Below are positions 2,799 to 50,389 of a DNA stretch of 64,000 bases, piece by piece (positions within the stretch are counted from its first letter, which is position 1; every line of letters starts with the position of its first letter). Location: contig NZ_BMGP01000001.1 in NCBI RefSeq assembly GCF_014640255.1, forward strand, positions 723,851 through 787,850. The letters run 5' to 3'. The translations under genes were made by a program, and so were the position numbers. Source of the DNA: Subtercola lobariae (lineage in GTDB: Bacteria; Actinomycetota; Actinomycetes; Actinomycetales; Microbacteriaceae). Under the pieces are notes generated by a model. That model ran no database searches and was not told the DNA's origin. It saw only the letters and a list, made by a program, of their open reading frames with translations.

Positions 2799-3869
2799 TT
2801 ACAGCCGCGTTGTCGACACCAGGCCGGTGACGGCACCGGTGCTCGCGAGGTACTCGGCGCGCTGGGTGCGAAATGCCTCACGGCGTTTCTTCTGGGCGGC
2901 CGGGTCTGGCACCGGGGCTGCTGCGAGCAGCAGGCGCGTGTAGGCGTCTTGCGGATGATCGATGACCTCGGCGGTCGTGCCGGTCTCGACAATGCGGCCG
3001 CGGTCGAGCACTGCGATGTGATCGGAGAGGTGGCCGATCACCGCGATGTCGTGTGAGATGAAGAGGTAGCTGAGGCTGCGCTCACGACGCAATCGGTCGA
3101 GCAGGTTGAGCACCTGGGCCTGAATCGAGAGGTCGAGTGCGCTGACGGCTTCGTCGCACACCACCAAGCGTGGGCGCACGATCAACGCGCGCGCTATCGC
3201 GATGCGCTGCCGTTGCCCGCCAGAGAACTCCGTCGGAAACCGCTGTGCGACGCTCGCCACCATGCCGACGGTGTCGAGCGACTCGTGCACCCTGGCGGTG
3301 ACCTCTTTTCTGGTCAGCGTCGCATCGCTCGCAACCAGTGATTCGGCGAGAGTCGCGCCGATCGATCGAGCTGGGTTCAGCGAGCCGTACGGGTCTTGAA
3401 AAACGACCTGGATGTCGCTGGTCAGCTCACGCCGGCGTTTCGGCGACGCGTGGGTGATGTCTTCGCCGTCGAAGATCACGGCGCCCGCTGCGGCCGGCAC
3501 GAGGCCGAGTACGACGTTGCCGATGGTCGACTTGCCCGAGCCGGACTCGCCGACCAGCCCTAACGTCTCACCCTCGACGATGTCGAAGCTGACATTCTCG
3601 ACGACGCGGGCGACCGTGCGGCGTCGCTTGTAGTCGACGGCGAGATCGGTCACGCGAAGCAGCGGCTCGGTCAACAGCGGCTCGGTCAGCTGCGGCTCAG
3701 TCAACAGTGGCTCAGTCAACGCTGACCCGCTCGATTGTGACTCGCTCGACAGCTGCTGATTCGACAGCTGCTGAGTCGGCAGCTGCTTGTTCACGCGTGA
3801 CCCGCTCGAGAGCATCGTGCTCGACGGCCTCTGCCCTGACCGCCGTTCGCTCGCCCGTGACTGATTCAT
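2799..3869 (-). CDS. Oligopeptide/dipeptide ABC transporter ATPase (DppF/OppF type)
   Basis: 356 aa cytoplasmic ATPase of a peptide-type importer. Walker A GESGSGKST is at 107-115, the signature FSGGQRQR at 215-222 and Walker B LVVCDE at 235-240. The first 75 residues are an extra low-complexity tail built of 5-residue repeats (LTEPL and QLSxQ types). The ATG at 3869 is preceded by GAGGAG at the right distance, so this tail is probably translated. The gene overlaps the 3' end of the upstream permease-ATPase fusion by 158 bp in another frame, which is unusually long. Last gene of the operon descending from 8408. Confidence 0.92.
   Translation of the reverse strand: MNQSRASERRSGQRPSSTMLSSGSRVNKQLPTQQLSNQQLSSESQSSGSALTEPLLTEPQLTEPLLTEPLLRVTDLAVDYKRRRTVARVVENVSFDIVEGETLGLVGESGSGKSTIGNVVLGLVPAAAGAVIFDGEDITHASPKRRRELTSDIQVVFQDPYGSLNPARSIGATLAESLVASDATLTRKEVTARVHESLDTVGMVASVAQRFPTEFSGGQRQRIAIARALIVRPRLVVCDEAVSALDLSIQAQVLNLLDRLRRERSLSYLFISHDIAVIGHLSDHIAVLDRGRIVETGTTAEVIDHPQDAYTRLLLAAAPVPDPAAQKKRREAFRTQRAEYLASTGAVTGLVSTTRL
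3664..3790. repeat. 15-bp periodic tandem repeats in a gene overlap
   Basis: Four 15-bp units of the GGCTCGGTCAACAGC type (3664-3723) and three of the TCGACAGCTGCTGAT type (3746-3790), with degenerate 15-bp units between them. The period is five codons. On the minus strand one frame encodes the N-terminal tail of the 2799-3869 ATPase. Another encodes the last pentads (AAVES, AAVER, VTIER) of the 3712-5826 fusion protein. Confidence 0.85.
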
Positions 3870-5826
3870 GTCTCAACTCCTCGATCTCGACGACGATTTC
3901 GTCGACGCGAATGCACCGCACAGCGTGCCGGTCTTCAATGAGCTCTAGTGGCACCGCCTGCTCGCGGCATGCGTCGGTCGCGAATCCGCACCGATCGGCG
4001 AAGCGGCAGCCGCTCGGCCACGTTCCGGGTGGTGGCACCACTCCGGGTATCGAGTGGAGCCTGCCACCCCGCTTCTGTGCGTGCGGGTCGGATGCCCGCA
4101 GGGCCATCGAATATGGGTGCCGCGGGTGGGCGAACAGCGGTGCCACCTCGGCCTCTTCCACGATCTCGCCCGCGTACATCGCAATGCCGCGGTCGCACAG
4201 GTCGGCGACCACACCCCAGTCGTGAGTGACCAGCAGCACGGCAAGGTCGCGCTCTTTCTGCAGGGTGCGCAGCAGATCGAGAATCTGCATCTGCGCGCTG
4301 ACGTCGAGTGCCGTGGTAGGCTCGTCGGCGACGATCACATCGGGGTCGCCTGACAGAGCGATCGCGATGACGATGCGCTGGGCCATGCCTCCCGAGATCT
4401 GGTGCGGGTAGGCCTTCAGCACGTGCTCGGTGTTCTTGATCTGCACTGTTTCGAGCAGCTGAATGGCCCGCTGCCGGGCGGCCTTGCGGCTCAGTTTCTG
4501 GTGAGTACGAACGATCTCGATCAGTTGGTTGCCCACCCGGTACGCCGGGTTCAACGCGGCCATCGGCTCCTGCGCGATGTAGGCGATCTTCGACCCGCGC
4601 AGTTTCTGCAGGGTCTGCTCCGACGCCCCGAGCACTTCCTGGCCGTCGAGCACCACCGAACCGGTCGCGGTTGCCCCCGCGGGAAGGATGCCCAGCGCGG
4701 CCCGCGCGGTCACCGACTTTCCGGCGCCCGACTCGCCCACCAACCCGACGACCTCGCCGGGCAGCAGCGTCAGCGAGACGTTCGAGACCAGCTTCACCGA
4801 TGAGCCGTCTTTCGGCACTGAGACGGTGAGGTCGCTGATGACGAGCATCGGGTTGATCGCCCCTGCTGCCGCACCTGCTGAAGCAGCGGTGCTGGCGACC
4901 TGGGTTGCAGAAACCGTGGCTCCGGATGCCCGCGCAGCAGTCTTCGCGACCGACCTCGAGATCTTCGCTCGACTGAGCCCGTTGTGCCGGCGTCGGCCAA
5001 GAACGGCGCGCTGCGCCACATCACCGAGCGTGGAGAAAGCCAAAATGGTCAGTACCACCACGGCAGACGTTGGAATCAGCGGCCAGATGTTCGTGTAGAT
5101 CGAGGTCGACGCCTCTTTGATCATGCCGCCCCAGCTCGGGTTCGGCGGCGCAGCATCGATGCCGAGAAAGCCCAAACCCACCTGCACGACAATCGCCAGC
5201 GAGGCGATGATCGACGACTGAATCACCAGCTGGCCGAGCAGTCGAGGTAGCTCGTGGCGAACCATGATCTGGCCCTCACGCAGACCCGAGGTGCGCGCAG
5301 CTGTGATGAACAGCTCGCCGCGAATGTTCAGCGTCGAGGCGCGGAACACCCGGTAGGCGCCAGCCGACATGAGCACTCCGAGCACGACCATGACGACGGT
5401 GACGTTACGGGAGGTCACCGCTGCCACAGAGAGCAGCACGACCAACGCGGGAATGGATTGCAGCATGTCGGCGAAGGCGGTAAACGTGGCATCCAGACCC
5501 GACCTGAAGTGACCGGCGATCAAACCCATGGTGGCGCCGATGACGTTCGCGATGACCGCGACAATAACGACGCCGGTGATGGTGACGCGCGAACCCCAGG
5601 CCAAGCGGGCGAGAATGTCACGCCCGAGAGAGTCTGTGCCCAGTAGGTGGGCGGCGCTCGGCAGCTGCAGCGTGGCCGCCAAGTCTTGTTCGGTCGGCGA
5701 GTATCGCGAGATCAGCGGAATCACGATCAGCATGCCGATGATCACAATCGCCAGCCAGATCAGAGCGAGAATCGAGACCGGGTTTGTGATGAGAGTGCGA
5801 AAGACGGTGCCGCGGCGAGTAGTCAT
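3712..5826 (-). CDS. Permease-ATPase fusion of a dipeptide-type ABC importer (DppC-DppD)
   Basis: 704 aa. Residues 1-280 are a DppC-like permease: N-terminal membrane segment, conserved LLGTDSLGRDILAR at 61-74, several membrane helices, and an EAA-type loop near 170-200. A roughly 45-residue Ala/Ser linker leads to a complete ATPase: Walker A GESGAGKSV at 364-372, signature ISGGMAQR at 477-484, Walker B VIVADEP at 497-503, and the Cys-containing oligopeptide-transporter C-terminal motif GCRFADRCG. The last 60 residues are acidic pentad repeats. Usually these are two proteins; fusions of this kind occur in some actinobacterial importers. The start overlaps the DppB-like gene by 4 bp. Confidence 0.93.
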   Translation of the reverse strand: MTTRRGTVFRTLITNPVSILALIWLAIVIIGMLIVIPLISRYSPTEQDLAATLQLPSAAHLLGTDSLGRDILARLAWGSRVTITGVVIVAVIANVIGATMGLIAGHFRSGLDATFTAFADMLQSIPALVVLLSVAAVTSRNVTVVMVVLGVLMSAGAYRVFRASTLNIRGELFITAARTSGLREGQIMVRHELPRLLGQLVIQSSIIASLAIVVQVGLGFLGIDAAPPNPSWGGMIKEASTSIYTNIWPLIPTSAVVVLTILAFSTLGDVAQRAVLGRRRHNGLSRAKISRSVAKTAARASGATVSATQVASTAASAGAAAGAINPMLVISDLTVSVPKDGSSVKLVSNVSLTLLPGEVVGLVGESGAGKSVTARAALGILPAGATATGSVVLDGQEVLGASEQTLQKLRGSKIAYIAQEPMAALNPAYRVGNQLIEIVRTHQKLSRKAARQRAIQLLETVQIKNTEHVLKAYPHQISGGMAQRIVIAIALSGDPDVIVADEPTTALDVSAQMQILDLLRTLQKERDLAVLLVTHDWGVVADLCDRGIAMYAGEIVEEAEVAPLFAHPRHPYSMALRASDPHAQKRGGRLHSIPGVVPPPGTWPSGCRFADRCGFATDACREQAVPLELIEDRHAVRCIRVDEIVVEIEELRHESVTGERTAVRAEAVEHDALERVTREQAAADSAAVESAAVERVTIERVSVD

Positions 5827-6764
5827 CGGAAGGTCACTTTCGGGTTCACAAGTGCGTATACGACATCGAGAACGATATTGATCAAGACGATGATGAGGGT
5901 GAAGACCACCGTGACGCCCAGGAGCATCGGCAGGTCACCCTGAGAAGAGGCCTGCACGGCGAGTCCGCCGAGCCCAGGAATAGCGAAGATCGTCTCGATG
6001 AGCACGGTGGCACTGAAGAGCGTGACGATCACCACACCGAGGTACGCGATGATCGGCACCGCAGAAGCCTTGAGAACGTGCTTCCAAATGATCGACTGGC
6101 GTGCGTAGCCATTGGCGCGCTGCACGGTCACGAATTCGCTGCTCATCACGTCTTCGGCGGCGGCTCGCGTCTGTTTGGCGATGATGCCCACGGCGCCGAA
6201 GGCGAGCGTTGCCACCGGCAGAACTAACGAAAGCGCCCATTTGTTGGGAGACGAGGCGAGGGGCACGTAACCGCTCGGCGGCAGCCAGTGCAGCCAGACG
6301 GCGAAGACGGGAATGGCGAACAACGCCAGAATGAAGTTAGGAACGGCCACCCCGGCGAACGAGATCGTGTCGATCGAGGTGGCGAGTCGGCCGCCGCGAA
6401 CCGCGCTCGTGAGGCCGAGGGGCACGGCGATGACCACGATCGCGACGGTGGCGATTCCCACCAACGAGAGGGTCGGCCCGAGGCGCTGGAAGATCGCCTC
6501 GCTCACCGACTGCCCGGTGATCAGCGAGTGGCCGAGGTTTCCTTGTAGTGCACTGGTGACCCAGTTGAGATACTGCACCAGAATGGGCTGGTCTAAGCCC
6601 ATCTGCTGCCGCAGCGCGGCGAGCTGGTCGGGAGTGGCCGACGAGCCGAGCACCGTGTAGGCCGCGTCGCCCGGGGTGAGGGAGACGAGCAGAAAGGTGA
6701 GAAATGAGACGGCGAACAGCAGCGGAATCGACACCGCCAACCGCCGAAGAAGAATGACTAGCAA
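5823..6764 (-). CDS. ABC transporter permease (DppB type)
   Basis: 313 aa integral membrane permease of a peptide-type importer with about six helices. LLVSLTPGDAAY and VLIETIFAIPGLG are typical of DppB/OppB proteins. I prefer the TTG at 6764, which has GGAGG seven bases upstream. The longer frame from 6812 would start inside a strong hairpin and lacks a ribosome binding site. The 3' end overlaps the fusion gene by 4 bp, indicating translational coupling. Confidence 0.9.
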   Translation of the reverse strand: MLVILLRRLAVSIPLLFAVSFLTFLLVSLTPGDAAYTVLGSSATPDQLAALRQQMGLDQPILVQYLNWVTSALQGNLGHSLITGQSVSEAIFQRLGPTLSLVGIATVAIVVIAVPLGLTSAVRGGRLATSIDTISFAGVAVPNFILALFAIPVFAVWLHWLPPSGYVPLASSPNKWALSLVLPVATLAFGAVGIIAKQTRAAAEDVMSSEFVTVQRANGYARQSIIWKHVLKASAVPIIAYLGVVIVTLFSATVLIETIFAIPGLGGLAVQASSQGDLPMLLGVTVVFTLIIVLINIVLDVVYALVNPKVTFR

Positions 6765-6782
6765 TTCTTTGCCTCCAAGCAG

Positions 6783-6815
6783 GGGGTGCTCTCGTATCTG
6801 ACGCGAGAGCACCCC
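6783..6815 (-). other. Intercistronic stem-loop between binding protein and permease genes
   Basis: A perfect 12-bp stem (6783-6794 with 6804-6815) and 9-nt loop lie between the binding-protein stop and the permease ribosome binding site. No U-run follows on the minus strand. That favours a partial attenuator or a 3' mRNA stabiliser giving more binding protein than permease, as known for the malE-malF junction, over a full terminator. Confidence 0.65.
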
Positions 6816-6833: not shown

Positions 6834-8408
6834 TTACGAAGCGGGCGTGATGTAAACGGGGTTGATGATGCCGAAGACCGCCACGTTGTTCACCTTGGTG
6901 TCATGGAAGATGATGGTCGGGTCACTGGTGATCGGCACCGAGTAGGCCTGGTCGACCGCGATCTTGTTGGTCGCCGCCCATGCGGCCTGTGATGCATCGG
7001 TGGATGCCGCGGCTGCCGCATCTGCTGATGCGTCGACGTCAGGCAGGGTGATGGCCTGCGGGTTGATGACGCCGGCAGGCGAGTAGAGCACCGAGTACGA
7101 GTTCGACATTCCGGTGAGGCCCGGCGACGGGTAGATCACCGCAGAGAATGCTCCACTTCGGCCATCCTTCGCGTACTCGGGGAAGGTCGTCGCAACGGTG
7201 ATGTTGACGGTGATGCCGACTTGGGCAAGCTCGGCGGCGATGGCCTGACCGATCTTGACCGCGCTCGGCACGAACCCGGGCAGCGCCACAGACATGGTGA
7301 AACCGTTCGCGTACCCGGCGGTGGCGAGCAGCTTCTTCGCCCCGTCTTGGTCGTAGGAGTACGTGCTGTCGAGACTGGCGTCATAGCCGAGCGCGTCGAC
7401 GGGAACGGTTTGAGCCGTCGCTTTGCCGAGCCCATTGGTGGCAGCGTTCGCGATCGATGTGCGGTCGACAGCCATGTTGATCGCCTGGCGTACTCGAGGG
7501 TCGGCGAGGGCCGGGGCATCCTTGCCGTTCCAGTCACTGATCCACAGCCCGCTGATGTTCGTGTTGTAGACCTCGGCCTTCACGCCCGAGCTCTGCGCGC
7601 TCTGGTAGGTGTCGGTCGAGCCGTTGGCCACGTCGATCTGGCCGGACTGTAAGGAGGCGAGGGCGGTGTTCGAGTCGGCGATCACCTTGATGACCACCTC
7701 TTTGTACTTGATGCCAGAGGGGTCGTAGTAGTGGGGGTTCGGCAGGTAGTGGTATTCCGAGCCCTGCACCGTGCCGGTGCTGCTCAGCATGTACGGGCCG
7801 GCGCCGTCGGTAGTTGTGCCGAGCGCGTCGAGATTGCCGGCGAGCGCAGTGGGGCTGATGATTTCGCCCATGCCGGTCGTAGTGCCGTCAGAAAGGCCGT
7901 ACAGAAAGTTCGTGTTCGGTTTCGACAGGTTGAAAACCACTGTCAGAGGGTCGGGTGTGTCGATCGATGCGATGACTGCTGCGGTGCTCGAGAACGAACC
8001 GCCGCCACTCTTGAAGTGTTCGATCGACGTCTTCACGGCCGCCGAGTCGAGGGCCGTGCCGTCAGAGAACATCAGACCTGAACGCAGTTTCACCTGCAAA
8101 GTCACCTGCGGGCCGCTGCCGAGCCAGGTGTATGACTCCGCAAGGCTCGGCACGGGCGGCTGCCCCAGTGTTTGGTCGTGCAGCAGAGTGCCGTAGGCCG
8201 GCAGGTGGAACGTCGTGTTCGTGCCGCCACTCTTGCTCGGGTCCATGCTGATGGGCGGCGACGGCATGGCGATTGTCAGCGTCGTGTTGTCAGACGAATC
8301 TGCGCTCGCCGAGCCGGAGCAGGCGCTCAACGACGCTGCTGCGGCAAGAGCTATGACCGCTGTGACGGCGATGACCCCGCCGCGCCGATCTCGAAAACTA
8401 CTTCTCAT
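6834..8408 (-). CDS. Extracellular solute-binding lipoprotein, family 5
   Basis: 524 aa, the binding protein of the importer encoded downstream. A signal peptide with the lipobox LSAC (Cys about 30) predicts a membrane-anchored lipoprotein. The body follows SBP_bac_5 architecture (ITIAMPSPPISMDPS-like start, LAESYTWLG, LRSGLMFSDGTALDS, DPRVRQAINMAVDR). The ATG at 8408 has GGAGA upstream; an upstream in-frame start at 8501 would bury the signal peptide and cross the promoter. First gene of the operon 8408-2799. Family members bind peptides, nickel, sugars or aromatic conjugates, so the substrate cannot be read from sequence. Confidence 0.93.
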   Translation of the reverse strand: MRSSFRDRRGGVIAVTAVIALAAAASLSACSGSASADSSDNTTLTIAMPSPPISMDPSKSGGTNTTFHLPAYGTLLHDQTLGQPPVPSLAESYTWLGSGPQVTLQVKLRSGLMFSDGTALDSAAVKTSIEHFKSGGGSFSSTAAVIASIDTPDPLTVVFNLSKPNTNFLYGLSDGTTTGMGEIISPTALAGNLDALGTTTDGAGPYMLSSTGTVQGSEYHYLPNPHYYDPSGIKYKEVVIKVIADSNTALASLQSGQIDVANGSTDTYQSAQSSGVKAEVYNTNISGLWISDWNGKDAPALADPRVRQAINMAVDRTSIANAATNGLGKATAQTVPVDALGYDASLDSTYSYDQDGAKKLLATAGYANGFTMSVALPGFVPSAVKIGQAIAAELAQVGITVNITVATTFPEYAKDGRSGAFSAVIYPSPGLTGMSNSYSVLYSPAGVINPQAITLPDVDASADAAAAASTDASQAAWAATNKIAVDQAYSVPITSDPTIIFHDTKVNNVAVFGIINPVYITPAS

Positions 8409-8472
8409 GTGATGGTCTCCACGCTTCGTTGTGTGAATGAACGGGGCACCGGATGCCCGCGCCTCTGAGTAG

Positions 8473-8501
8473 ACGGTATGTCTAGTATGACAGTCTGTCA
8501 A
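8473..8501 (-). promoter_or_regulatory. Promoter of the ABC importer operon with overlapping palindrome
   Basis: On the minus strand TTGACA (8496-8501) and TACCGT (8473-8478) are separated by 17 bp, upstream of the binding-protein gene. The palindrome TGACAGTCTGTCA (8488-8500) covers the -35 box, a position expected for a repressor. It shares ACAG/CTGT half-sites with the motif at 8551. The TetR encoded at 9899 is the nearest candidate. Confidence 0.55.
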
Positions 8502-8550
8502 TCACCGATTTGGCTTGTTGACGCCCTCGGAGTTTCGACTTACTATCAAA

Positions 8551-8568
8551 ACAGACGCTCTGTATACT
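8551..8568 (+). promoter_or_regulatory. Operator ACAGACGCTCTGT and -10 box of the monooxygenase gene
   Basis: ACAGACGCTCTGT (8551-8563) is a palindrome with 5-bp arms. It abuts a good -10 hexamer, TATACT (8563-8568), 24 bp before the monooxygenase start. The identical 13-mer recurs at 13821-13833 before the NmrA-like gene, suggesting one regulator for both. The -35 match is weak. Confidence 0.6.
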
Positions 8569-8591
8569 TTGAAGTTATCATAGGAGATGAC

Positions 8592-9815
8592 ATGGAATTC
8601 ACGCCCGCAAGCTCACCCCTTGAGGCCGCGATCGACCCAGCCGGCGAAGAGCTCGTCGACTGGGCACGCGCCTTCATTCCTGAACTCCGCGCGGCCCGCG
8701 ATGAGATCGACGCCGCCTCTCGCACCCCGCATGACATCGCCGCACAGATGAGCGATGCCGGGCTCTGGCGCATGGCGGTGCCCCGTGAACTTGGTGGCCT
8801 GCAGTCGGGAATCAGCGTGTGGAAGCGCGCGGTCACCGAGATCGGCCGCGGCGACGGCGGTGTCGCCTGGGGGCTCACCCTGAACTCCGCAGCAGCCTGG
8901 ATGGCCGCGAATCTGTACCCGCGTCACGTCGTCGACGAGGTTTTCGCCGAACCCGACGCCCGCTTCGCCGGGGTCTTTTCGGGTCGCGGCGTGAAGGCGC
9001 ACAAAGTCGAAGGCGGCATTGTGGTCGACAAGGGCATGTGGTTCTTCAACTCCGGTGTGTACCAGGCCGACTGGAACCTCTTGGGGGTGCCCGGGTTCAA
9101 CGAAGCCGGCGAGCCGGTCTTCCCGGGTGGCGTCGCGATCGTACCGATGTCTGACGTGACGATTCTGCACGACTGGAACCCCTCGGGGTTGCGGGGCAGC
9201 GGCAGCACGAACGTCGCCATGGAGGGCATTTTCATCGCCGACGATCGCATCGTCTCGCTGCAAGCCTGCAACGAGGGCACTCAACCGGCCATCTTCGGCG
9301 CCGAAGACCCGTTCTACCGGGTGGCGTTCGGCCCGCTGATGGTGCTCATTCTCGCGTTTCCGGTGTTGGGGCTCGGCAAGCACATGCTCGAATCCTTTCT
9401 CGAAGCGCTGCCGAAGCGCGACATCAAGCTGACGTTCTACACCAAGCAGAACCTCGCCGCCGTGACACATCTGCAGTTGGGCGAGGTGTCGGCGAAGATC
9501 GACACGGCAGACGCGATCATCGAGCGTGGTTGCGAGGCCATGCAGTACTGGGCCGACCGCAACGAGACGATGCCCAAAATCGAGCGAGCACGCATCACCC
9601 GCGACACTGCATACGCAGACCAGCTCGTCTGGGAGGCCATCGACACTCTGGCGAACGCTGCCGGTGGGTCGTGGGCGTGGAAGGCCAGTGAGCTGAACCG
9701 CATCTGGCAAGACGCCAAAGTCGCGACGATGCATCCCTTCGTCAACGTGGCCAGCAACCTCGAGTCGTACGGGCGCATGCTTGCTGGTATTGAGCCCGAC
9801 CTGATGGCAGTCTGA
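8592..9815 (+). CDS. Acyl-CoA-dehydrogenase-fold flavin-dependent monooxygenase
   Basis: 407 aa. The family includes the oxygenase components HpaH/C2, DszC and IacA, which use reduced flavin from a partner to hydroxylate aromatic or heterocyclic substrates. Visible features: N-terminal helical domain with MRxPRELGG-like text (WRMAVPRELGGLQSG), middle beta domain (GGVAIVPMSDV, WNPSGLRGSGSTNVAMEG), and C-terminal helical bundle (AGGSWAWKASELNRIWQD). The catalytic Glu typical of true acyl-CoA dehydrogenases is not evident. The ATG at 8592 has AGGAGA upstream. It is transcribed divergently from the importer; the flavin reductase at 1582 is the probable partner. A true dehydrogenase cannot be excluded. 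Confidence 0.85.
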   Translation: MEFTPASSPLEAAIDPAGEELVDWARAFIPELRAARDEIDAASRTPHDIAAQMSDAGLWRMAVPRELGGLQSGISVWKRAVTEIGRGDGGVAWGLTLNSAAAWMAANLYPRHVVDEVFAEPDARFAGVFSGRGVKAHKVEGGIVVDKGMWFFNSGVYQADWNLLGVPGFNEAGEPVFPGGVAIVPMSDVTILHDWNPSGLRGSGSTNVAMEGIFIADDRIVSLQACNEGTQPAIFGAEDPFYRVAFGPLMVLILAFPVLGLGKHMLESFLEALPKRDIKLTFYTKQNLAAVTHLQLGEVSAKIDTADAIIERGCEAMQYWADRNETMPKIERARITRDTAYADQLVWEAIDTLANAAGGSWAWKASELNRIWQDAKVATMHPFVNVASNLESYGRMLAGIEPDLMAV

Positions 9816-9898
9816 TCGGGGGCCGGATCGGGTAGGGTGCGGCTATCGCAACGTCATTCCACGCTGGCCGACCAGGTGGTGCACGAAGGGGAGAGAGC

Positions 9899-10618
9899 GT
9901 GGAACAATCTCAGGCTGTGATCGACGAGAGCACCGACCATCGCGTTCGTGTGGCCAGACAGCGGCGCGAGCGGATGCACAGGCGACTCCTCGAGGCCGTT
10001 CTGGTGTGTTTCGCCGAGACGCCGTTCGGAGGGTCACCCACGGTCGAGGTGGTCATTGCCAAGGCAGACGTCTCGAAGGCGACCTACTACAAGTACTTCG
10101 CGTCGATCGACGAGGCCGTGCAGCAGCTCGGCCAGACGATGGCCGACGACATGGTCGAGATCGCCAAGAGCATGTTCACGCCGACCAACACGGCCCCGTT
10201 TCGCATGACGGCGGCCATGCAGATCTTTTTGATTCGCAGTGTTCGCGAGCCGGTCTGGGCGGCCTTCGTCTCACGAGCCGACGTGATGGGCCCCACGAGT
10301 GAAGTGCGGCACGGCATCGATATGCACATCAGGGCTGCACGCGAGAGCGGATTTCTCACGTTCACGTCTCAGCAATCTGCGCTCGCGCTCGCGCTCGGCA
10401 CGCTGAGCGAGGGAATGCGTCACCTCGCTCAGACCCCGACCGAAGACGTGCTGCCGTTTGTTCACGACACCATGGCACTCATGTTGCGTGGCCTGGGGGC
10501 TGATTCTGTGAAGGCCGAAGAGCTTCTCGCTGAGACATCGACGTTCATTCGTGAATCGGCTGGCGACGAGCTGCCGACGTGGAGCGATTCGCTGAGAGAA
10601 CTCGGGGCAGACGAGTGA
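9899..10618 (+). CDS. TetR family transcriptional regulator
   Basis: 239 aa. The N-terminal helix-turn-helix spans about residues 20-70 (EVVIAKADVSKATYYKYFASIDEAVQ has the recognition-helix pattern). A long helical ligand-binding domain follows. GTG start at 9899 with AGGGGAGAG upstream. Its stop overlaps the GTG start of the next gene, so it is co-transcribed with the SnoaL-like and cyclase genes. It likely controls the divergent importer and monooxygenase promoters at 8473-8568, and possibly the copy at 13821. Confidence 0.9.
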   Translation: MEQSQAVIDESTDHRVRVARQRRERMHRRLLEAVLVCFAETPFGGSPTVEVVIAKADVSKATYYKYFASIDEAVQQLGQTMADDMVEIAKSMFTPTNTAPFRMTAAMQIFLIRSVREPVWAAFVSRADVMGPTSEVRHGIDMHIRAARESGFLTFTSQQSALALALGTLSEGMRHLAQTPTEDVLPFVHDTMALMLRGLGADSVKAEELLAETSTFIRESAGDELPTWSDSLRELGADE

Positions 10619-11226
10619 GCCAGCTAACGGCATCCGTCGACGAGGCGGCCATTCGCTCGATCATCGAGCGCTGGGCCGTGCTTCGAGACGGCGGCATGTG
10701 GGCCGAATTCGCTGAGCTCTGGTGTGCCGACGGCCAAATGAGCGCGACCTGGTTCGAGGGTTCGGCAACCGACTTCATTCAGGCGAGCCGCGCGGGCTAC
10801 GAACGCGGCGTGAATGTGACGCACTTTCTCGGCGGCGCGGCCATCGAGGTGGTCGGTGACCGTGCGGTCGCGCAGACGAAGATGTCTATTACGCAGCGCG
10901 TCGAGCTGCACGGTGTGCTGGTCGACATCGAGTGCACCGGGCGGTTCTACGATCTGCTGCGGCGCGAAGAGGGCCGGTTCGGCTGGGGTATACGAGATCG
11001 CCGCGTCATTTACGAGAACGACCGCATCGTCGCGGTGGTTCCGGGTGCGCCGTTGAGGCTCGACGAGTCGCTGCTGGCGCAGTTTCCCGAGGGGTACCGG
11101 CACCTCGGCTATGCCCAGGCCCTCGGCGGGCTCTCGGTGCGGCCCGGGCTGCCCGGCCGTTCGGGGCCCGCGCTCGAGGCGCTCATGGCTGAGGGGCGCG
11201 CATGGCTGGGGGGCGCGCATGACTGA
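10615..11226 (+). CDS. SnoaL-like (NTF2-fold) protein, copy 1
   Basis: 203 aa protein of the nuclear-transport-factor-2/SnoaL superfamily. Residues about 10-130 carry the fold pattern (IRSIIERWAVLRDGGMWAEFAELWCADGQM, then the beta-strand-rich VELHGVLVDIECTGRFYDLL). Relatives act as small isomerases, cyclases or hydroxylation accessories; exact activity unknown. GTG start inside the GTGA overlap with the TetR stop. The C-terminal block (YRHLGYAQALGG) aligns with YRYLSYTRALRG of the protein at 12268, so the two are paralogues flanking the cyclase. Confidence 0.75.
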   Translation: MSQLTASVDEAAIRSIIERWAVLRDGGMWAEFAELWCADGQMSATWFEGSATDFIQASRAGYERGVNVTHFLGGAAIEVVGDRAVAQTKMSITQRVELHGVLVDIECTGRFYDLLRREEGRFGWGIRDRRVIYENDRIVAVVPGAPLRLDESLLAQFPEGYRHLGYAQALGGLSVRPGLPGRSGPALEALMAEGRAWLGGAHD

Positions 11227-11243
11227 GGGGCGCGCATGGCTGA
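11184..11243. repeat. 17-bp tandem repeat carrying ribosome binding site and ATG
   Basis: Three 17-bp units (11184-11200, 11201-11217, 11218-11234) and part of a fourth, each reading CATGGCTGAGGGGCGCG or a one-base variant. Every junction places GAGGGG five bases before an ATG. The array covers the end of the SnoaL-like gene and the start of the cyclase gene. Because 17 is not a multiple of three, the successive ATGs (11185, 11202, 11219, 11236) fall in different frames. Confidence 0.85.
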
Positions 11244-12189
11244 CAGCGACGTCAGAGCAGACAAGAAAGTTCAGACAATGACAGACCACAATGTTTACGA
11301 CTCAGATCAGACCGACGACCTGCCCAGCAACTGGGGGAGGTGGGGTGACGACGACGAGCGCGGCACCCTGAATCTCATCACGGCCGAGTCTCGCCTGCGA
11401 GGCTATGCCGAGCTCGCGAGTGGTGAGGTTGTGTCGCTCGCTGTTCCCATCTCGCCGTCGCTGTTCGCCGGCGGCGGGCCGTGGCCGCGCTCGCAGGTCT
11501 TGTCGCCGCCACCCGTGCAGCAGACCATGACCTACACGGGCTCGCCGCCCCGTGCGCTCAGCGACGTTCTGCTGATCTACACGCACCACGTGCACATGAC
11601 CCACATCGATGCTCTCGCGCACATTCCCCTCGACGGGCTCGTCTACCCGGGCAAGTCGTTGTTCGAGACCACGCGGGGCGGCACGATCAATCACGGCTCG
11701 ACCTCTGCATTCACGGGGGGCATCGTCACTCGCGGCATTCTGCTCGACCTGGCGCCGGGAGCCAGGCTCGATGCCGAGTACGTGATTCATGCCGCCGACC
11801 TCGATGCCGCGCTCGAGCGCACCGGCCGGTCTCTCGAGCCGGGCGACGCTGTCGTCATCCGCGGCGGCTGGCGGGTACGCGAACGCGAAGACATCGACGA
11901 CCCGTACCCCTACTTCGCCCTCGACGTGATTCAGTGGCTGGCCGACCACGATGTGAGCATCATCGCGAGCGACGTGGGCGACCGAGTGCTCTCGAAGCCC
12001 GGCGCGGAGATTCCGCTGCACGACGTCGCTCTCGCGCGGCTCGGCATGCCACTCATCGACGGCGCCGAGGTCGAAGAACTGGCCGAGACGGCCGACAGGC
12101 TCGGGCGGTGGGCGTTTTTGTTCGTGTGCGGCCCGATGCCGGTGCAGAATTCGACCGGCGTTCCGGTGAATCCGCTCGCGCTGTTCTGA
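11236..12189 (+). CDS. Cyclase-family metal-dependent hydrolase
   Basis: 317 aa, the cyclase/kynurenine-formamidase-like family (PF04199), which hydrolyses amide or ester/lactone bonds using a divalent metal. The metal motif is visible: H123-x-D125-x3-H129 within MTHIDALAH, preceded by further His at 117-120. SxVGDRVLSKPG and the C-terminal FLFVCGPMPVQNSTG are also family-like. I chose ATG 11236 for the GAGGGG five bases upstream; ATG 11278 is an alternative. Fourth gene of the run 9899-12852, between two SnoaL-like paralogues, suggesting processing of a ring-opened or lactone intermediate. Confidence 0.85.
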   Translation: MADSDVRADKKVQTMTDHNVYDSDQTDDLPSNWGRWGDDDERGTLNLITAESRLRGYAELASGEVVSLAVPISPSLFAGGGPWPRSQVLSPPPVQQTMTYTGSPPRALSDVLLIYTHHVHMTHIDALAHIPLDGLVYPGKSLFETTRGGTINHGSTSAFTGGIVTRGILLDLAPGARLDAEYVIHAADLDAALERTGRSLEPGDAVVIRGGWRVREREDIDDPYPYFALDVIQWLADHDVSIIASDVGDRVLSKPGAEIPLHDVALARLGMPLIDGAEVEELAETADRLGRWAFLFVCGPMPVQNSTGVPVNPLALF

Positions 12190-12267
12190 GGCGCCGAGCA
12201 TCCTGGGCCACATCACTTGCCAGAAACCGCCCGGTGATAAACCGGTACTACTACCTCTGGAGAATCA

Positions 12268-12852
12268 ATGAACGACGCAGCAACTGTCGGCGCGCTCGTG
12301 GTGCGTGAGCGCCAAACTCGAACGCGAGGCCTCGGCGACGCTAACATCGCCTGCTATCACCCCGACGCCATCATCGAGACGAGCTGGCTACGCGGCAGCC
12401 CCCGAGATTTCATCGCCGGCGCGGGCAACCCGTACGCCACGTTCGCGCGCCCGGTGAACCGCCTCGGCCCGCCCGACGTCACGGTCGTGGGCGACCGGGC
12501 GATGGTCGAGCTGCCGTCGACGACAATCGTGTGGATGCCCGTGAACGACGTCGAAGCTGTCTTCACCTCGTTCATGCGGCTGATCTACCGTGTCGAACGT
12601 CGTGCCGGCGGCCCCTGGCTGCTCAGCGCACTGCACTCGGTGAACGAAGGTGACACGCTCGAGCCCGCCGTGCCCGGCACCAGCCTCGGAATCGAGCCCG
12701 AAGCTCTCGCAGGGTTTCGGTCGTCGTACCGGTATCTCTCATATACCCGTGCGCTGCGCGGAACGGTCGTCGACGCCGACCTGCCTGGAACCGATCGCCC
12801 AGACCAGCTCAACGCGCTCTACGTCGACATCGACGCCTGGCTGCAAAGCTGA
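12268..12852 (+). CDS. SnoaL-like (NTF2-fold) protein, copy 2
   Basis: 194 aa, a paralogue of the protein at 10615 by its C-terminal YRYLSYTRALRG and DLPGTDRP segments. The N-terminal half is less typical, lacking the first helix motif of copy 1, so function is uncertain. ATG 12268 has TGGAGA upstream. The 78-bp gap from the cyclase gene holds no clear terminator, so it is probably in the same operon. Its last codons and stop lie in the first unit of a 21-bp tandem repeat. Confidence 0.7.
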   Translation: MNDAATVGALVVRERQTRTRGLGDANIACYHPDAIIETSWLRGSPRDFIAGAGNPYATFARPVNRLGPPDVTVVGDRAMVELPSTTIVWMPVNDVEAVFTSFMRLIYRVERRAGGPWLLSALHSVNEGDTLEPAVPGTSLGIEPEALAGFRSSYRYLSYTRALRGTVVDADLPGTDRPDQLNALYVDIDAWLQS

Positions 12853-12915
12853 GACGCCTGGCTACAAGGCTGAGACGCCTGGCTACAAAGCTGAGACGCC
12901 TGGCTGCACGGCTGC
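12832..12915. repeat. 21-bp tandem repeat at a convergent gene junction
   Basis: Four 21-bp units of the GACGCCTGGCTACAAAGCTGA type (12832-12852, 12853-12873, 12874-12894, 12895-12915), identical except for a few positions. The first unit holds the last codons and stop of the SnoaL-like gene. Units 3 and 4 hold the stop and last codons of the NmrA-like gene on the other strand. It looks like local duplication of a 3' end. Confidence 0.9.
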
Positions 12916-13779
12916 CCGGCGGGCATCCCATTCCCGGCGAACGAACTGCTCATACGAGGTAGGTTCACGGCCGAGCAGCCAGGTGAGCACGTTCGGGTTG
13001 CCCACGAAGTCGTGGGCGCTGTTGTAGCCGGAGATGGTCTGTAAGGCGTTCACCTCGTGCTGCCGGGTCGACAGGTCGCCGGCGCCGAGCAGCGCGACGG
13101 CGAACGCTTCTGAATCGATCTCGCGCACCTCGATGGGCCTCTCGACCACGCGGCTGATGATTTCGCCGAGTTGGTGTGCCGTGAAACGCCCCGGGGCCAC
13201 GAGTTCATACGTTGCAGCTGCATGCCGGGCGGTGTCAGTGAGCGCCATTACGGCGACATCGGTCACATCGTCGAGATCGACTACGCTCTGGCTGCGATCG
13301 AGCGACCACATGAGTTCGAAAACGCCGTGCTCGAACACCGACCGCAACTTGATGGGCGACATGTAGTTCGACGGCTGCAGAATGGTGAACTCGAGGCCAG
13401 AGGCCAGCAGATGCTCTTCGATGTCGCGCTTGATCTCGTGCTGCACCAGCTCAGAAGCGATGGCGTGCAGCACCGAGCTGAACACGAAATGCGAAACGCC
13501 TGCTTCGCGTGCGGCATCGATGAGGCCGAACCCCATGGCGCGCTCGCCCGGGCTGACCGTCGCGGCGATGTGGTAGATCTTCTCGACACCCCGAACCGCC
13601 CGGCGTTGCATCTCGGGGTCGGCGATGTCGCCGACGATGACGTCGTGCACGCCCAGCTCACGCAGACGGGCAGCGGATGCCTCAGACCTGACACTCGCTC
13701 GAACCTCGAGCCCGCGCTGCAGAAGTTTGGGAAGCAGAAGCTTGCCCTGATTGCCGGAGGCAGAGGTCACGAGAATCAT
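12883..13779 (-). CDS. NmrA-like NAD(P)-binding oxidoreductase
   Basis: 298 aa atypical short-chain dehydrogenase of the NmrA/HSCARG type. Starts with a Rossmann motif MILVTSASGNQGKLL, then VRASVRSE (NADP-type strand), VFSSVLHAIAS and FTILQPSNYMSP. It may be a quinone or enone reductase, or a redox sensor. ATG 13779 has AAAGGG upstream. The 65-bp leader holds the palindrome shared with the monooxygenase promoter, placing the gene in the same presumed regulon. Its final codons lie in the 21-bp tandem repeat. Confidence 0.85.
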   Translation of the reverse strand: MILVTSASGNQGKLLLPKLLQRGLEVRASVRSEASAARLRELGVHDVIVGDIADPEMQRRAVRGVEKIYHIAATVSPGERAMGFGLIDAAREAGVSHFVFSSVLHAIASELVQHEIKRDIEEHLLASGLEFTILQPSNYMSPIKLRSVFEHGVFELMWSLDRSQSVVDLDDVTDVAVMALTDTARHAAATYELVAPGRFTAHQLGEIISRVVERPIEVREIDSEAFAVALLGAGDLSTRQHEVNALQTISGYNSAHDFVGNPNVLTWLLGREPTSYEQFVRREWDARRAAVQPGVSAL

Positions 13780-13820
13780 GGGGGCCCTTTCGATCGCGAT
13801 GCTGCGATCTCATCACCATA

Positions 13821-13833
13821 ACAGACGCTCTGT
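13821..13833. promoter_or_regulatory. Operator-like palindrome identical to 8551-8563
   Basis: ACAGACGCTCTGT, matching the 13-mer at 8551 exactly, and the flanking bases agree as well (AACAGACGCTCTGT, then TA after one variable base). It lies between the NmrA-like gene and the SDR upstream on the same strand. Probable binding site for the TetR at 9899. Confidence 0.6.
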
Positions 13834-13844
13834 CTATTATGAAT

Positions 13845-14582
13845 TCAGCCCTGTGCCGTCGGCCGAATAATGATTTCGCCGACTTCGACCCCTGCCGGCT
13901 GCGCGATGGCGTAGGCGACGGCTGCCGCAATGGCGTCGGGCGGCATGGCCATCGCGTCTCGCTGTGCGCGCAGGGCCGCGCCCACCTCGGGCGAGCCGCC
14001 CTTGCCGACCCCTTCGGTGTTCGTGAAACCGGGTGAGATCACGGTCACCCTCAGGTCGGGGCCGGCCTCTTGGCGCAGCCCCTCGCTCAACGCTCGCACC
14101 GCGGTCTTCGTTGCGGCGTAGACCGACATCGTCGCAGTCACCTTGTGAGCCGATGTCGACGCCGTGTGAATGAAGTGACCCGACTTCTGCCGCCGAAACA
14201 CGGGTAGCGCGGCAGAAATGCCGTTCAGTACGCCTTTGAGATTCACGTCGATCATCTCGTTCCAGTCGTCGACGGAGTCGTCGTCGAGGGCCGAGACCGC
14301 CATACTTCCGGCGTTGCTGAAGAGAACGTCGAGCCTGCCGTAGTTGTCGAGGGCTGCGCTGACCAGTTTGCGAAGGTCGGCCGGCTCCCGAACATCCACC
14401 TGCACCGCTATCGCTTCGCCGCCAGCATCGCGAATGCGTGTCGCCAGCGCCTGAACGAGTTCTTCTCTCCGAGCGGCCACGATCACGCGTGCGCCCTCGT
14501 CGGCGAGATGAAGTGCGGTGGCCTCGCCGATACCGCTGCTGGCTCCGGTGATTGCGACGACCTTCGCTGTTATGCCTGACAC
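13845..14582 (-). CDS. Short-chain dehydrogenase/reductase
   Basis: 245 aa classical SDR. Cofactor motif TGASSGIG at 12-19, acidic DVREPADL after strand 3, NAG at 90-92, catalytic Ser near 142, Tyr155 and Lys159 (YAATK). NAD(P)-dependent alcohol/ketone interconversion; substrate unknown. The GTG start at 14582 has AGGGAG six bases upstream. It is transcribed away from the TetR at 14642, with an operator-like palindrome between them. It may read through into the NmrA-like gene. Confidence 0.92.
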   Translation of the reverse strand: MSGITAKVVAITGASSGIGEATALHLADEGARVIVAARREELVQALATRIRDAGGEAIAVQVDVREPADLRKLVSAALDNYGRLDVLFSNAGSMAVSALDDDSVDDWNEMIDVNLKGVLNGISAALPVFRRQKSGHFIHTASTSAHKVTATMSVYAATKTAVRALSEGLRQEAGPDLRVTVISPGFTNTEGVGKGGSPEVGAALRAQRDAMAMPPDAIAAAVAYAIAQPAGVEVGEIIIRPTAQG

Positions 14583-14603: not shown

Positions 14604-14617
14604 CGGACAGTTGTCCG
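14604..14617. promoter_or_regulatory. Operator-like palindrome between SDR and TetR genes
   Basis: CGGACAGTTGTCCG has 6-bp arms around GT. A wider inverted pair, GAAACGGACA (14600-14609) and TGTCCGTTTC (14643-14652), overlaps the TetR start codon. Both suggest autoregulation by the TetR at 14642 and control of the divergent SDR. Confidence 0.65.
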
Positions 14618-14641: not shown

Positions 14642-15208
14642 ATGTCCGTTTCGCCACCGGATGCTCGTTCCGTCTCTTCACGGGCCGATGCCAACCGCAA
14701 CCGCCAACGAATTCTCGACGCAGCGCGCACGGCGCTCGACGAGTCAGCACAAACCACGATGCAGGCCATCGCGCGCTCGGCCGGTGTGGGCCAGGCGACG
14801 CTGTACCGGCATTTCGAGAGCCGAGAGGCGCTGCTGCTCGAGGTCTACGAGCACGAATTCGCCGAGCTCATCGACTCTGCCGAAACATTTCGCGATCGGA
14901 GCGAACCGGTGGTGGCGCTTCGAACGTGGCTCACTCACCTCGCGTCGTTCGGCAGAAAGAAGCACGCTCTCTCGGCGGTTCTCGATGCGGCGGCGAAACG
15001 CGCGCTTCACGAGAAGCAATATTCGAGCATCATCGGCGTGATCACCACCCTGCTCGACGACGGCAAGAACGCCGGCCAACTGCGCGCCGACATTCAGGCC
15101 GACGAGCTTCTCGCGCTGGTGGGTTTTCTCTGGCAACTCGACACCACCACAGACACCCGCATCACCCACCTGCTCGACCTGGTCGTCGACGGCCTGCGCG
15201 CTCACTAG
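14642..15208 (+). CDS. TetR family transcriptional regulator
   Basis: 188 aa. Helix-turn-helix at about residues 20-65 (ANRNRQRILDAARTAL, then GVGQATLYRHFESREALLLEVY), followed by an all-helical ligand domain typical of regulators beside SDR genes. ATG 14642 preceded by AGGAGG. The divergent SDR gene is the obvious target. Only 55 bp with small direct repeats (AGAAGCCGC) separate its stop from the convergent DUF72 gene. Confidence 0.92.
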   Translation: MSVSPPDARSVSSRADANRNRQRILDAARTALDESAQTTMQAIARSAGVGQATLYRHFESREALLLEVYEHEFAELIDSAETFRDRSEPVVALRTWLTHLASFGRKKHALSAVLDAAAKRALHEKQYSSIIGVITTLLDDGKNAGQLRADIQADELLALVGFLWQLDTTTDTRITHLLDLVVDGLRAH

Positions 15209-47689: not shown

Positions 47690-47884
47690 CTCGTCGTCTC
47701 CTCTTTCACCACGCGTCGGCGAGTGGTCTTACAATCTTCCCGCGCGCGGCCGCCGCAGAAAACCGACACGGCGGCGCAAGAGGCGCTCGGCGGCCCGACG
47801 TTTGGCGCAGCGCGTGTCGACGCTGCCTCGAGCGAGCAGAATTCGAGAAGCGACGCCGGGGGTGCCCGAATTAGGCTGACTGCC

Positions 47885-50389
<2,505 letters not shown>

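Follow-up and report, generated by a model that had tools for sequence, protein, structure and literature searches.

In the 64,000-nucleotide stretch of the Subtercola lobariae genome analysed here (C1:723851-787850 of genome G000; hereafter the window), an exact 13-mer, ACAGACGCTCTGT, occurs twice with zero mismatches, at 8551-8563 and 13821-13833, and the gene of a TetR-type regulator at 9899 (TetR1) lies between the two sites, all as described in the initial annotation. The locus raises the question of whether the two copies belong to an operator, how far this operator extends, and which regulator and genes are connected through it. The initial annotation had proposed a shared operator that defines a small regulon. 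This proposal is well supported, with the 9899 TetR as the best candidate regulator, while the boundaries, the membership and the extent had to be redrawn; the signal is real, the conclusion was of the right kind and the boundaries were wrong. As argued below, the sites are in all likelihood operators of one local repressor, most likely TetR1, whose repression would be relieved by a pathway compound.

Definition of a 27-bp operator

The initial annotation had regarded a chance origin of two exact 13-mers 5.3 kb apart as unlikely, and this was borne out by the reversed control, which was found in none of the 12 genus genomes searched (this one included). The exact 13-mer has 2 genomic copies (22 contigs with 4,088,613 bases in all), both in the window; among the 12 genomes it occurs twice in G000, the genome of the window, and once in G005, inside an open reading frame (ORF), and it is absent from the other 10. 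With up to two mismatches only the two copies were found in the window and 50 of 100 shuffles held as many or more, thus the loose pattern is uninformative there, and as a genome-wide search pattern it was discarded (66 matches versus 65 for the reversed control).

The best dyad found around the second copy by inverted-repeat analysis was 13817-13841, CATAACAGAC-GCTCT-GTCTATTATG, which is centred 2 bases further right than the 13-mer. The same layout with a five-base spacer (N5) recurs at 8464-8490 (TAGAC-GGTAT-GTCTA), and also at 8546-8572, where the inner arm is poorer. The operator is a 27-bp palindrome with an N5 centre, TCATAATAGAC-N5-GTCTATTATGA (majority consensus of five sites in both directions: TCATAATAGACANTNTGTCTATTATGA), its third member in the window is TAGACGGTATGTCTA within 8464-8490 instead of TGACAGTCTGTCA, and it is not limited to the window, as two further sites, D and E, were found outside. 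The sites and the shorter sequences they replace are as follows.

8546-8572, + strand: operator A, TCAAAACAGAC-GCTCT-GTATACTTTGA, 8 of 11 arm pairs, heads the putative monooxygenase operon
8551-8563, + strand: 13-mer, inner part of operator A
13816-13842, - strand: operator B, on the + strand CCATAACAGAC-GCTCT-GTCTATTATGA, 9 of 11 arm pairs, between the stop of an SDR gene and the start of an NmrA-like gene
13821-13833, + strand: 13-mer, inner part of operator B
8464-8490, - strand: operator C, on the + strand TCTGAGTAGAC-GGTAT-GTCTAGTATGA, 8 of 11 arm pairs, heads the putative importer operon
8488-8500, unstranded: TGACAGTCTGTCA, overlaps operator C by 3 bases and the TTGACA of the importer promoter, no operator copy
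C1:721719-721745 (L044:11720-11746): site D, 7 of 11 arm pairs, 2.1 kb left of the window
C4:337606 (L045:12607-12633): site E, 7 of 11 arm pairs, on another contig

Over seven sites, these five and two from a Rhizobiales metagenome-assembled genome (MAG) described below, 55 of 77 pairs are complementary about the N5 axis, compared with 19 of 77 about the axis of the 13-mer and 28 of 77 at the best of the other 24 offsets tried; the comparison somewhat favours N5, as the seven sites were picked with this layout in view. The palindrome TGACAGTCTGTCA had been taken for a relative of the 13-mer covering the -35 box of the importer promoter. The minus-strand TTGACA (8496-8501) does lie mostly inside it, but the sequence has no other exact occurrence in the genome and departs from the operator model.

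Distribution of the operator in the genome

The part common to A, B and C, AGACNNNNNGTMTANTWTGA, has exact genome matches at A, B, C and site E, and with one mismatch it was found only at site D, on both strands (2 matches). When up to two mismatches were allowed, 18 matches were obtained versus 13 for the control; among the 12 with two mismatches, 4 come from reading A, B, C and E on the opposite strand, and the other 8 were treated as background. Both AGACNNNNNGTMTANTWTGA and the A-C matrix were derived from A-C, and the independent sites are only D, E and those of the Rhizobiales locus L011. With the A-C matrix, D and E scored 26.9 and 27.3 bits, respectively, and apart from the operator sites the window, L044 and L045 reached at most 12.2, 12.1 and 11.4 bits. 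On simulated genomes (122.6 million positions, equal to 30 genome equivalents, each base drawn by the preceding three, with training on the window plus three G000 stretches), 25 bits were not reached anywhere, while 5 positions reached 20 and 19 reached 18.4. A sequence-only profile of the five sites in both directions recovered these five and no others from the genome at E<=10, each 5′ of a gene (150 of the 478 first-look candidates were scored). The genome scan for the motif that had been suggested in the initial annotation thus gave five operator sites, each heading a gene.

The operator in a distant bacterium, next to a relative of TetR1

Relatives of the monooxygenase encoded behind operator A (8592-9815) were sought in GTDB genome contigs, which yielded a single locus, L011, of the Rhizobiales bacterium 62-17 MAG (MKVW01000003.1, 17,158 bp). 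The host of the window probably belongs to another phylum, Actinomycetota, since the ten best listed plasmid matches of a UvrA-like window protein (47723-50389) all come from Streptomyces or Embleya (77-79%). It resembles the window in its monooxygenase (63% identical), its TetR (41%), a SnoaL-like relative, located in a long ORF overlapping an MFS gene, and the operator itself, two copies of which lie in the intergenic region of the divergent monooxygenase and MFS genes.

L011:7916-7942: site 1, TAATAGTAGAT-TATAA-GTCTATTATTA, 5′ of the monooxygenase gene
L011:7780-7806: site 2, GAAGAATATTC-ATATA-GTCTATTATTA, 5′ of the MFS gene

It differs in having an MFS transporter in place of the ABC importer and a tetR gene convergent with the monooxygenase gene, and the outer arms of its operator end with TTA/TAA, whereas those of the window operator end with TGA/TCA. 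The A-C matrix placed these two sites first and second on L011 (25.0 and 18.4 bits), followed by a position overlapping the second site (12.0) and then 9.9 elsewhere, and 0 of 1000 order-1 simulations of this AT-rich region reached the scores given by the A-E matrix. Reciprocally, the matrix made from the two L011 sites gave its three highest scores in the 64-kb window to B, C and A, in this order, and ranked D first in L044 and E first in L045.

Both window TetRs were compared by BLAST with those L011 ORFs that have at least 90 aa. TetR1 matched its 41% relative, while TetR2 (14642-15208) gave no match at 1e-4. The recognition region reads VSKATYYKYF in TetR1 and VSRATFYKYF in the L011 TetR. 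Palindromic operators were found at the candidate promoters of both TetR1's own and the target operons (five 27-bp sites near promoter-like hexamers), and we infer through L011 that the operator sites belong to TetR1. Alternatively, the operator could be real and TetR1 a bystander, the regulator being TetR2 or a protein encoded elsewhere. TetR2 adjoins the cluster and is a clear TetR, and site B lies directly behind the SDR gene divergent from the TetR2 gene, but L011, having the same operator, encodes a relative of TetR1 and yields no match for TetR2, and the TetR2/SDR divergent region contains no operator copy. The latter region has a different dyad of its own, CGGACAGTTGTCCG at 14604-14617, a candidate TetR2 operator. 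We therefore consider it rather unlikely that TetR1 is a bystander.

Promoters around the sites

If TetR1 acts at these sites, their positions relative to the promoters bear on the direction of its effect. The consensus scan detected promoter-like hexamers at two sites.

8518-8546, + strand: promoter-like TTGACG-17-TACTAT, consensus match only, the second hexamer ends at the start of operator A

At A, the last base of TACTAT (8546) is also the first of the operator, and at D, TTGACG-17-TAGATT ends at L044:11718, two positions before the operator. The two layouts are nearly identical (TTGACG-17, the -10 hexamer, then the operator), and as the hexamers end at the operator edge, the operator would cover the transcription start. 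The TATACT box (8563-8568), which was correctly reported to touch the 13-mer and shares the last base of the 8551-8563 copy, may not be a -10 box, since TTGACG-17-TACTAT ends where the operator begins. As judged by eye, the operator at site E lies on TTGCAT and TACTAT, 18 bases apart, and that at site C on the stretch between TTGACA and TACCGT, 17 apart. The operators would lie on or next to a likely core promoter at the five places, and these positions suit repression without proving it.

Position alone leaves the sign of the regulation unfixed. Inspected by eye, the promoter hexamers near C, B and E look weak, and the consensus scan found none at E and none on the minus strand at C, which would also suit an operator that recruits an activator instead of a repressor. 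The sites, however, apparently cover the start region, the spacer or the -10 box instead of standing upstream of the -35 box (A and D by scan; B, C and E by eye), so that a bound dimer would block the polymerase, and activation appears improbable.

Genes of the candidate regulon

Repression at these promoters would affect those of the following genes that lie behind A, B, C or D, the SDR and TetR2 genes being neighbours; each row of genes, judged by strand and spacing, may form one transcript.

8592-9815, + strand, behind A: HsaA/XiaF-like flavin-dependent monooxygenase, oxygenase component, acyl-CoA dehydrogenase fold
9899-10618, + strand, behind A: TetR1, candidate repressor
10615-11226, + strand, behind A: SnoaL-like protein, start codon uncertain
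11278-12189, + strand, behind A: PF04199 cyclase-family hydrolase
12268-12852, + strand, behind A: SnoaL/NTF2-like protein, no Pfam match at 0.001, 36% identical to the site E gene
12883-13779, - strand, behind B: NmrA-like reductase
6834-8408, - strand, behind C: SBP_bac_5 substrate-binding protein, first gene
5823-6812, - strand, behind C: ABC importer permease
3712-5826, - strand, behind C: ABC importer permease fused to ATPase
2799-3869, - strand, behind C: ABC importer ATPase
1582-2769, - strand, behind C: HsaB-like flavin reductase, end of the importer operon
1-1426, + strand: aldehyde dehydrogenase, third gene behind D, start left of the window
13845-14582, - strand: SDR, divergent from TetR2, no operator copy 5′
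14642-15208, + strand: TetR2, SbtR-like C-terminal domain

Site D is followed by genes for an amidohydrolase, an SDR and the aldehyde dehydrogenase running into the window, and site E by the SnoaL-like gene and then a luciferase-like monooxygenase gene. On this gene content, the operator copies appear to head the genes of one likely catabolic regulon, probably for the import and breakdown of one compound. The HsaA-like oxygenase behind A and the HsaB-like reductase behind C are a natural pair and probably form one two-component enzyme, which we counted in favour of a common regulon. The HsaA and HsaB equivalog models scored 172.4 (cut-off 450) and 171.8 (cut-off 230) with the 8592 and 1582 genes, respectively, which places the two in the same superfamily as HsaAB and makes them candidates for, rather than established examples of, the same enzyme. 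In the 395-aa flavin reductase the reductase domain covers residues 27-169, with no other Pfam match at 0.001, and the protein is 64% identical (373 residues) to that encoded at L045:5167-6312, about 6 kb from site E.

Immediately before the window stands a lone N (L044:13851). The 32 bases to its left recur to its right (L044:13819-13883), and the aldehyde-dehydrogenase frame seems to run on across the N. Two overlapping contigs were probably joined here without merging, and it is on this join that the placing of site D next to the window depends.

Four further NmrA relatives (35-70%) are encoded in the genome, at C4:326516-327370, 442282-443148, 444044-444895 and 451023-451886, and these stand in two more catabolic-looking regions, one with a monooxygenase relative (33.5%). 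Six NmrA-paralog loci (4 from this genome and the rest from two others) had no operator copy, the best score being 9.1 bits; site E lies about 10 kb from the relative at C4:326516-327370, and the NmrA loci of 3.9 kb were without the operator. Rfam gave no match on the window at gathering scores, and megablast of window 1-25000 against plasmids gave three short matches only.

Assessment of the repressor hypothesis

Two explanations that would take away the operator itself fared worse than those discussed above. Operators A and B are alike at 22 of 27 bases and even in the non-conserved spacer, GCTCT, as expected if a promoter piece had been duplicated locally and the 13-mer had no common function; the common spacer may indeed stem from duplication, but C, D, E and the two sites of the distant bacterium have the same arms with other spacers and the matrix test is reciprocal, which makes duplication a very improbable source of the whole likeness. 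In favour of the dyad ACAGA-CGC-TCTGT of the initial annotation as the binding site, with TGACAGTCTGTCA as a relative, both are perfect short dyads and rare in the genome. This reading is nevertheless hardly credible, since the axis of the 13-mer is far poorer in pairs than the N5 axis and TGACAGTCTGTCA has no second exact genome copy.

Several results weigh against the assignment of the sites to a TetR1 repressor. No operator copy stands directly 5′ of the TetR1 gene, sites D and E have just 7 of 11 arm pairs each, and a single comparison locus links TetR1 with the operator. Moreover, the second L011 site has 18.4 bits, a score reached about 0.6 times per simulated genome (19 in 30); the MAG genome gave no match at E<=10 to the sequence-only profile R1, which with filters off put the two sites on top of L011 but at only 4.4 and 4.0 bits (E 1.4 and 1.9). 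The operator was found in none of six plasmid loci (L020-L025) chosen for a related TetR, a related monooxygenase, or both, the best scores being 14.2 bits with the A-C matrix and 14.0 with the seven-site matrix. TetR1 itself scored 16.9 bits with Pfam TetR_N, below the cut-off of 24 (E 0.0055). Finally, the nearest look-alike in the genus (19.5 bits with the A-C matrix) lies 5′ of a histidine-kinase gene in the genus relatives G005 and G010. This is a 21-bp palindrome, TAGAC-N5-GTCTA (G005 C1:2499223-2499243, G010 C59:3510-3530), and the profile matches in these genomes had E values of 0.77 and above, at the start of the conserved histidine-kinase gene in both. It is probably due to chance or another motif, possibly a conserved element of its own; consequently, the operator core can occur outside the regulon, and the core alone is no proof of membership.

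As for the nature of TetR1, its L011 relative (L011:9148-9885) passes the TetR_N cut-off (24.5 against 24). The fold model of TetR1, made from two sequences, is all helical, with a mean predicted local distance difference test score of 61, blocks up to 91 in the helix-turn-helix (HTH) and low confidence outside the HTH. Compared with PDB folds it gave 805 matches at E<=10, none at E<=0.001, and the 50 listed of these appear, partly by their titles, to be TetR-family regulators.

Orthologs, whose promoter regions the initial annotation had suggested aligning, were not found in the genomes sampled. TetR1 found only itself in 299 sampled family genomes (E<=1e-10), and itself and one protein at 26% in 396 sampled phylum genomes (E<=1e-8), while the 8592 monooxygenase found only itself in 394 sampled class genomes (E<=1e-85). 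Likewise, the MAG TetR found itself and one protein at 27% in 297 genomes of the order of the MAG (E<=1e-12), and the MAG monooxygenase only itself in 378 genomes of its phylum (E<=1e-90). Among the plasmid loci, L020, L023, L024 and L025 encode TetR relatives at 25-32% and L021 a weaker one (25%, E 1e-5), while for L022 no TetR relative was reported. A different palindrome, TGTCATTATGACA, stands 5′ of the distant TetR1 relatives on plasmids of Burkholderia arboris (L023:7839) and Paraburkholderia sp. D15 (L025:7849). It is probably the own operator of these TetRs, as would be expected if operators drift with the repressor.

Comparison with known systems

KstR, the regulator of cholesterol catabolism, was the only NCBIfam model touched by TetR1 at 0.001, and the identification of TetR1 as KstR was rejected (NF033703, 19 bits versus a cut-off of 280). 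KstR regulates HsaA-type enzymes, and its operator differs from that of the window. The PDB sequence matches of TetR1 were three only, the second being RolR, the resorcinol repressor of Corynebacterium glutamicum (3aqs/3aqt; E 8.2e-4, query 11-210, only 22.3 bits), and the other two engineered RamR variants; RolR is also a weak listed fold match of the TetR1 model. RolR is described as a TetR-type regulator of aromatic (resorcinol) catabolism (PMC3086911).

Two systems were likened to the window by their operators rather than by their proteins. CymR is described as a repressor of an aromatic-catabolism system whose cumate operator (P2-CuO, AACAAACAGACAATCTGGTCTGTTTGTA) resembles that of the window in its AT-rich outer arms, its AGAC/GTCT inner half-sites and its place at promoters, there of two operons (PMC1654148). 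CuO has six bases between CAGAC and GTCTG instead of five and, by eye, other outer arms, thus the window operator does not match it in sequence and spacing. EdcR, the estrogen-responsive repressor of a degradation cluster in Caenibius, is similar in that one palindrome overlaps the -10 box of several cluster promoters, but its operator, TnnCnnTACnAnTnGTAnnGnnA, is unlike that of the window (PMC8700777). PheR was set aside as a comparable regulator, being described as IclR-type. The window operator was not found described in the open-access literature searched, although such an absence counts as weak evidence. Both operator and regulon are new, but of a well-known kind.

Proposed mechanism and implications

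The computed sites share their symmetry, are five in number in this genome and stand 5′ of genes, and the same operator occurs near a TetR1 relative in a distant bacterium. A mechanism can be drawn from these data, whose promoters, TetR1 binding, repression, autoregulation and inducer are predicted from sequence. A TetR1 dimer would bind the 27-bp palindrome and block transcription at the five promoters, and a pathway substrate or intermediate would bind TetR1 and release it from the DNA, whereupon the importer, the flavin reductase, the two-component monooxygenase and the downstream enzymes would be switched on together. As TetR1 lies behind site A, it would be autoregulated as well.

It is quite possible, if still tentative, that TetR1 and its operator are a package that moved between two phyla with the two-component monooxygenase while the transporter was swapped, and that the operator also captured the unlinked site E locus, with its paralogous SnoaL gene and luciferase-like monooxygenase on the other contig. 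An operator conserved between two bacteria this distant, with repressors 41% identical, would illustrate cleanly how a regulator and its sites move, or stay, together. For the uncharacterised catabolic cluster of this organism, the analysis supplies an operator exact enough for testing and a candidate regulon that is complete. Knowing what induces the repressor would give a lead to the pathway substrate, and a biosensor could be built on the two-part system.

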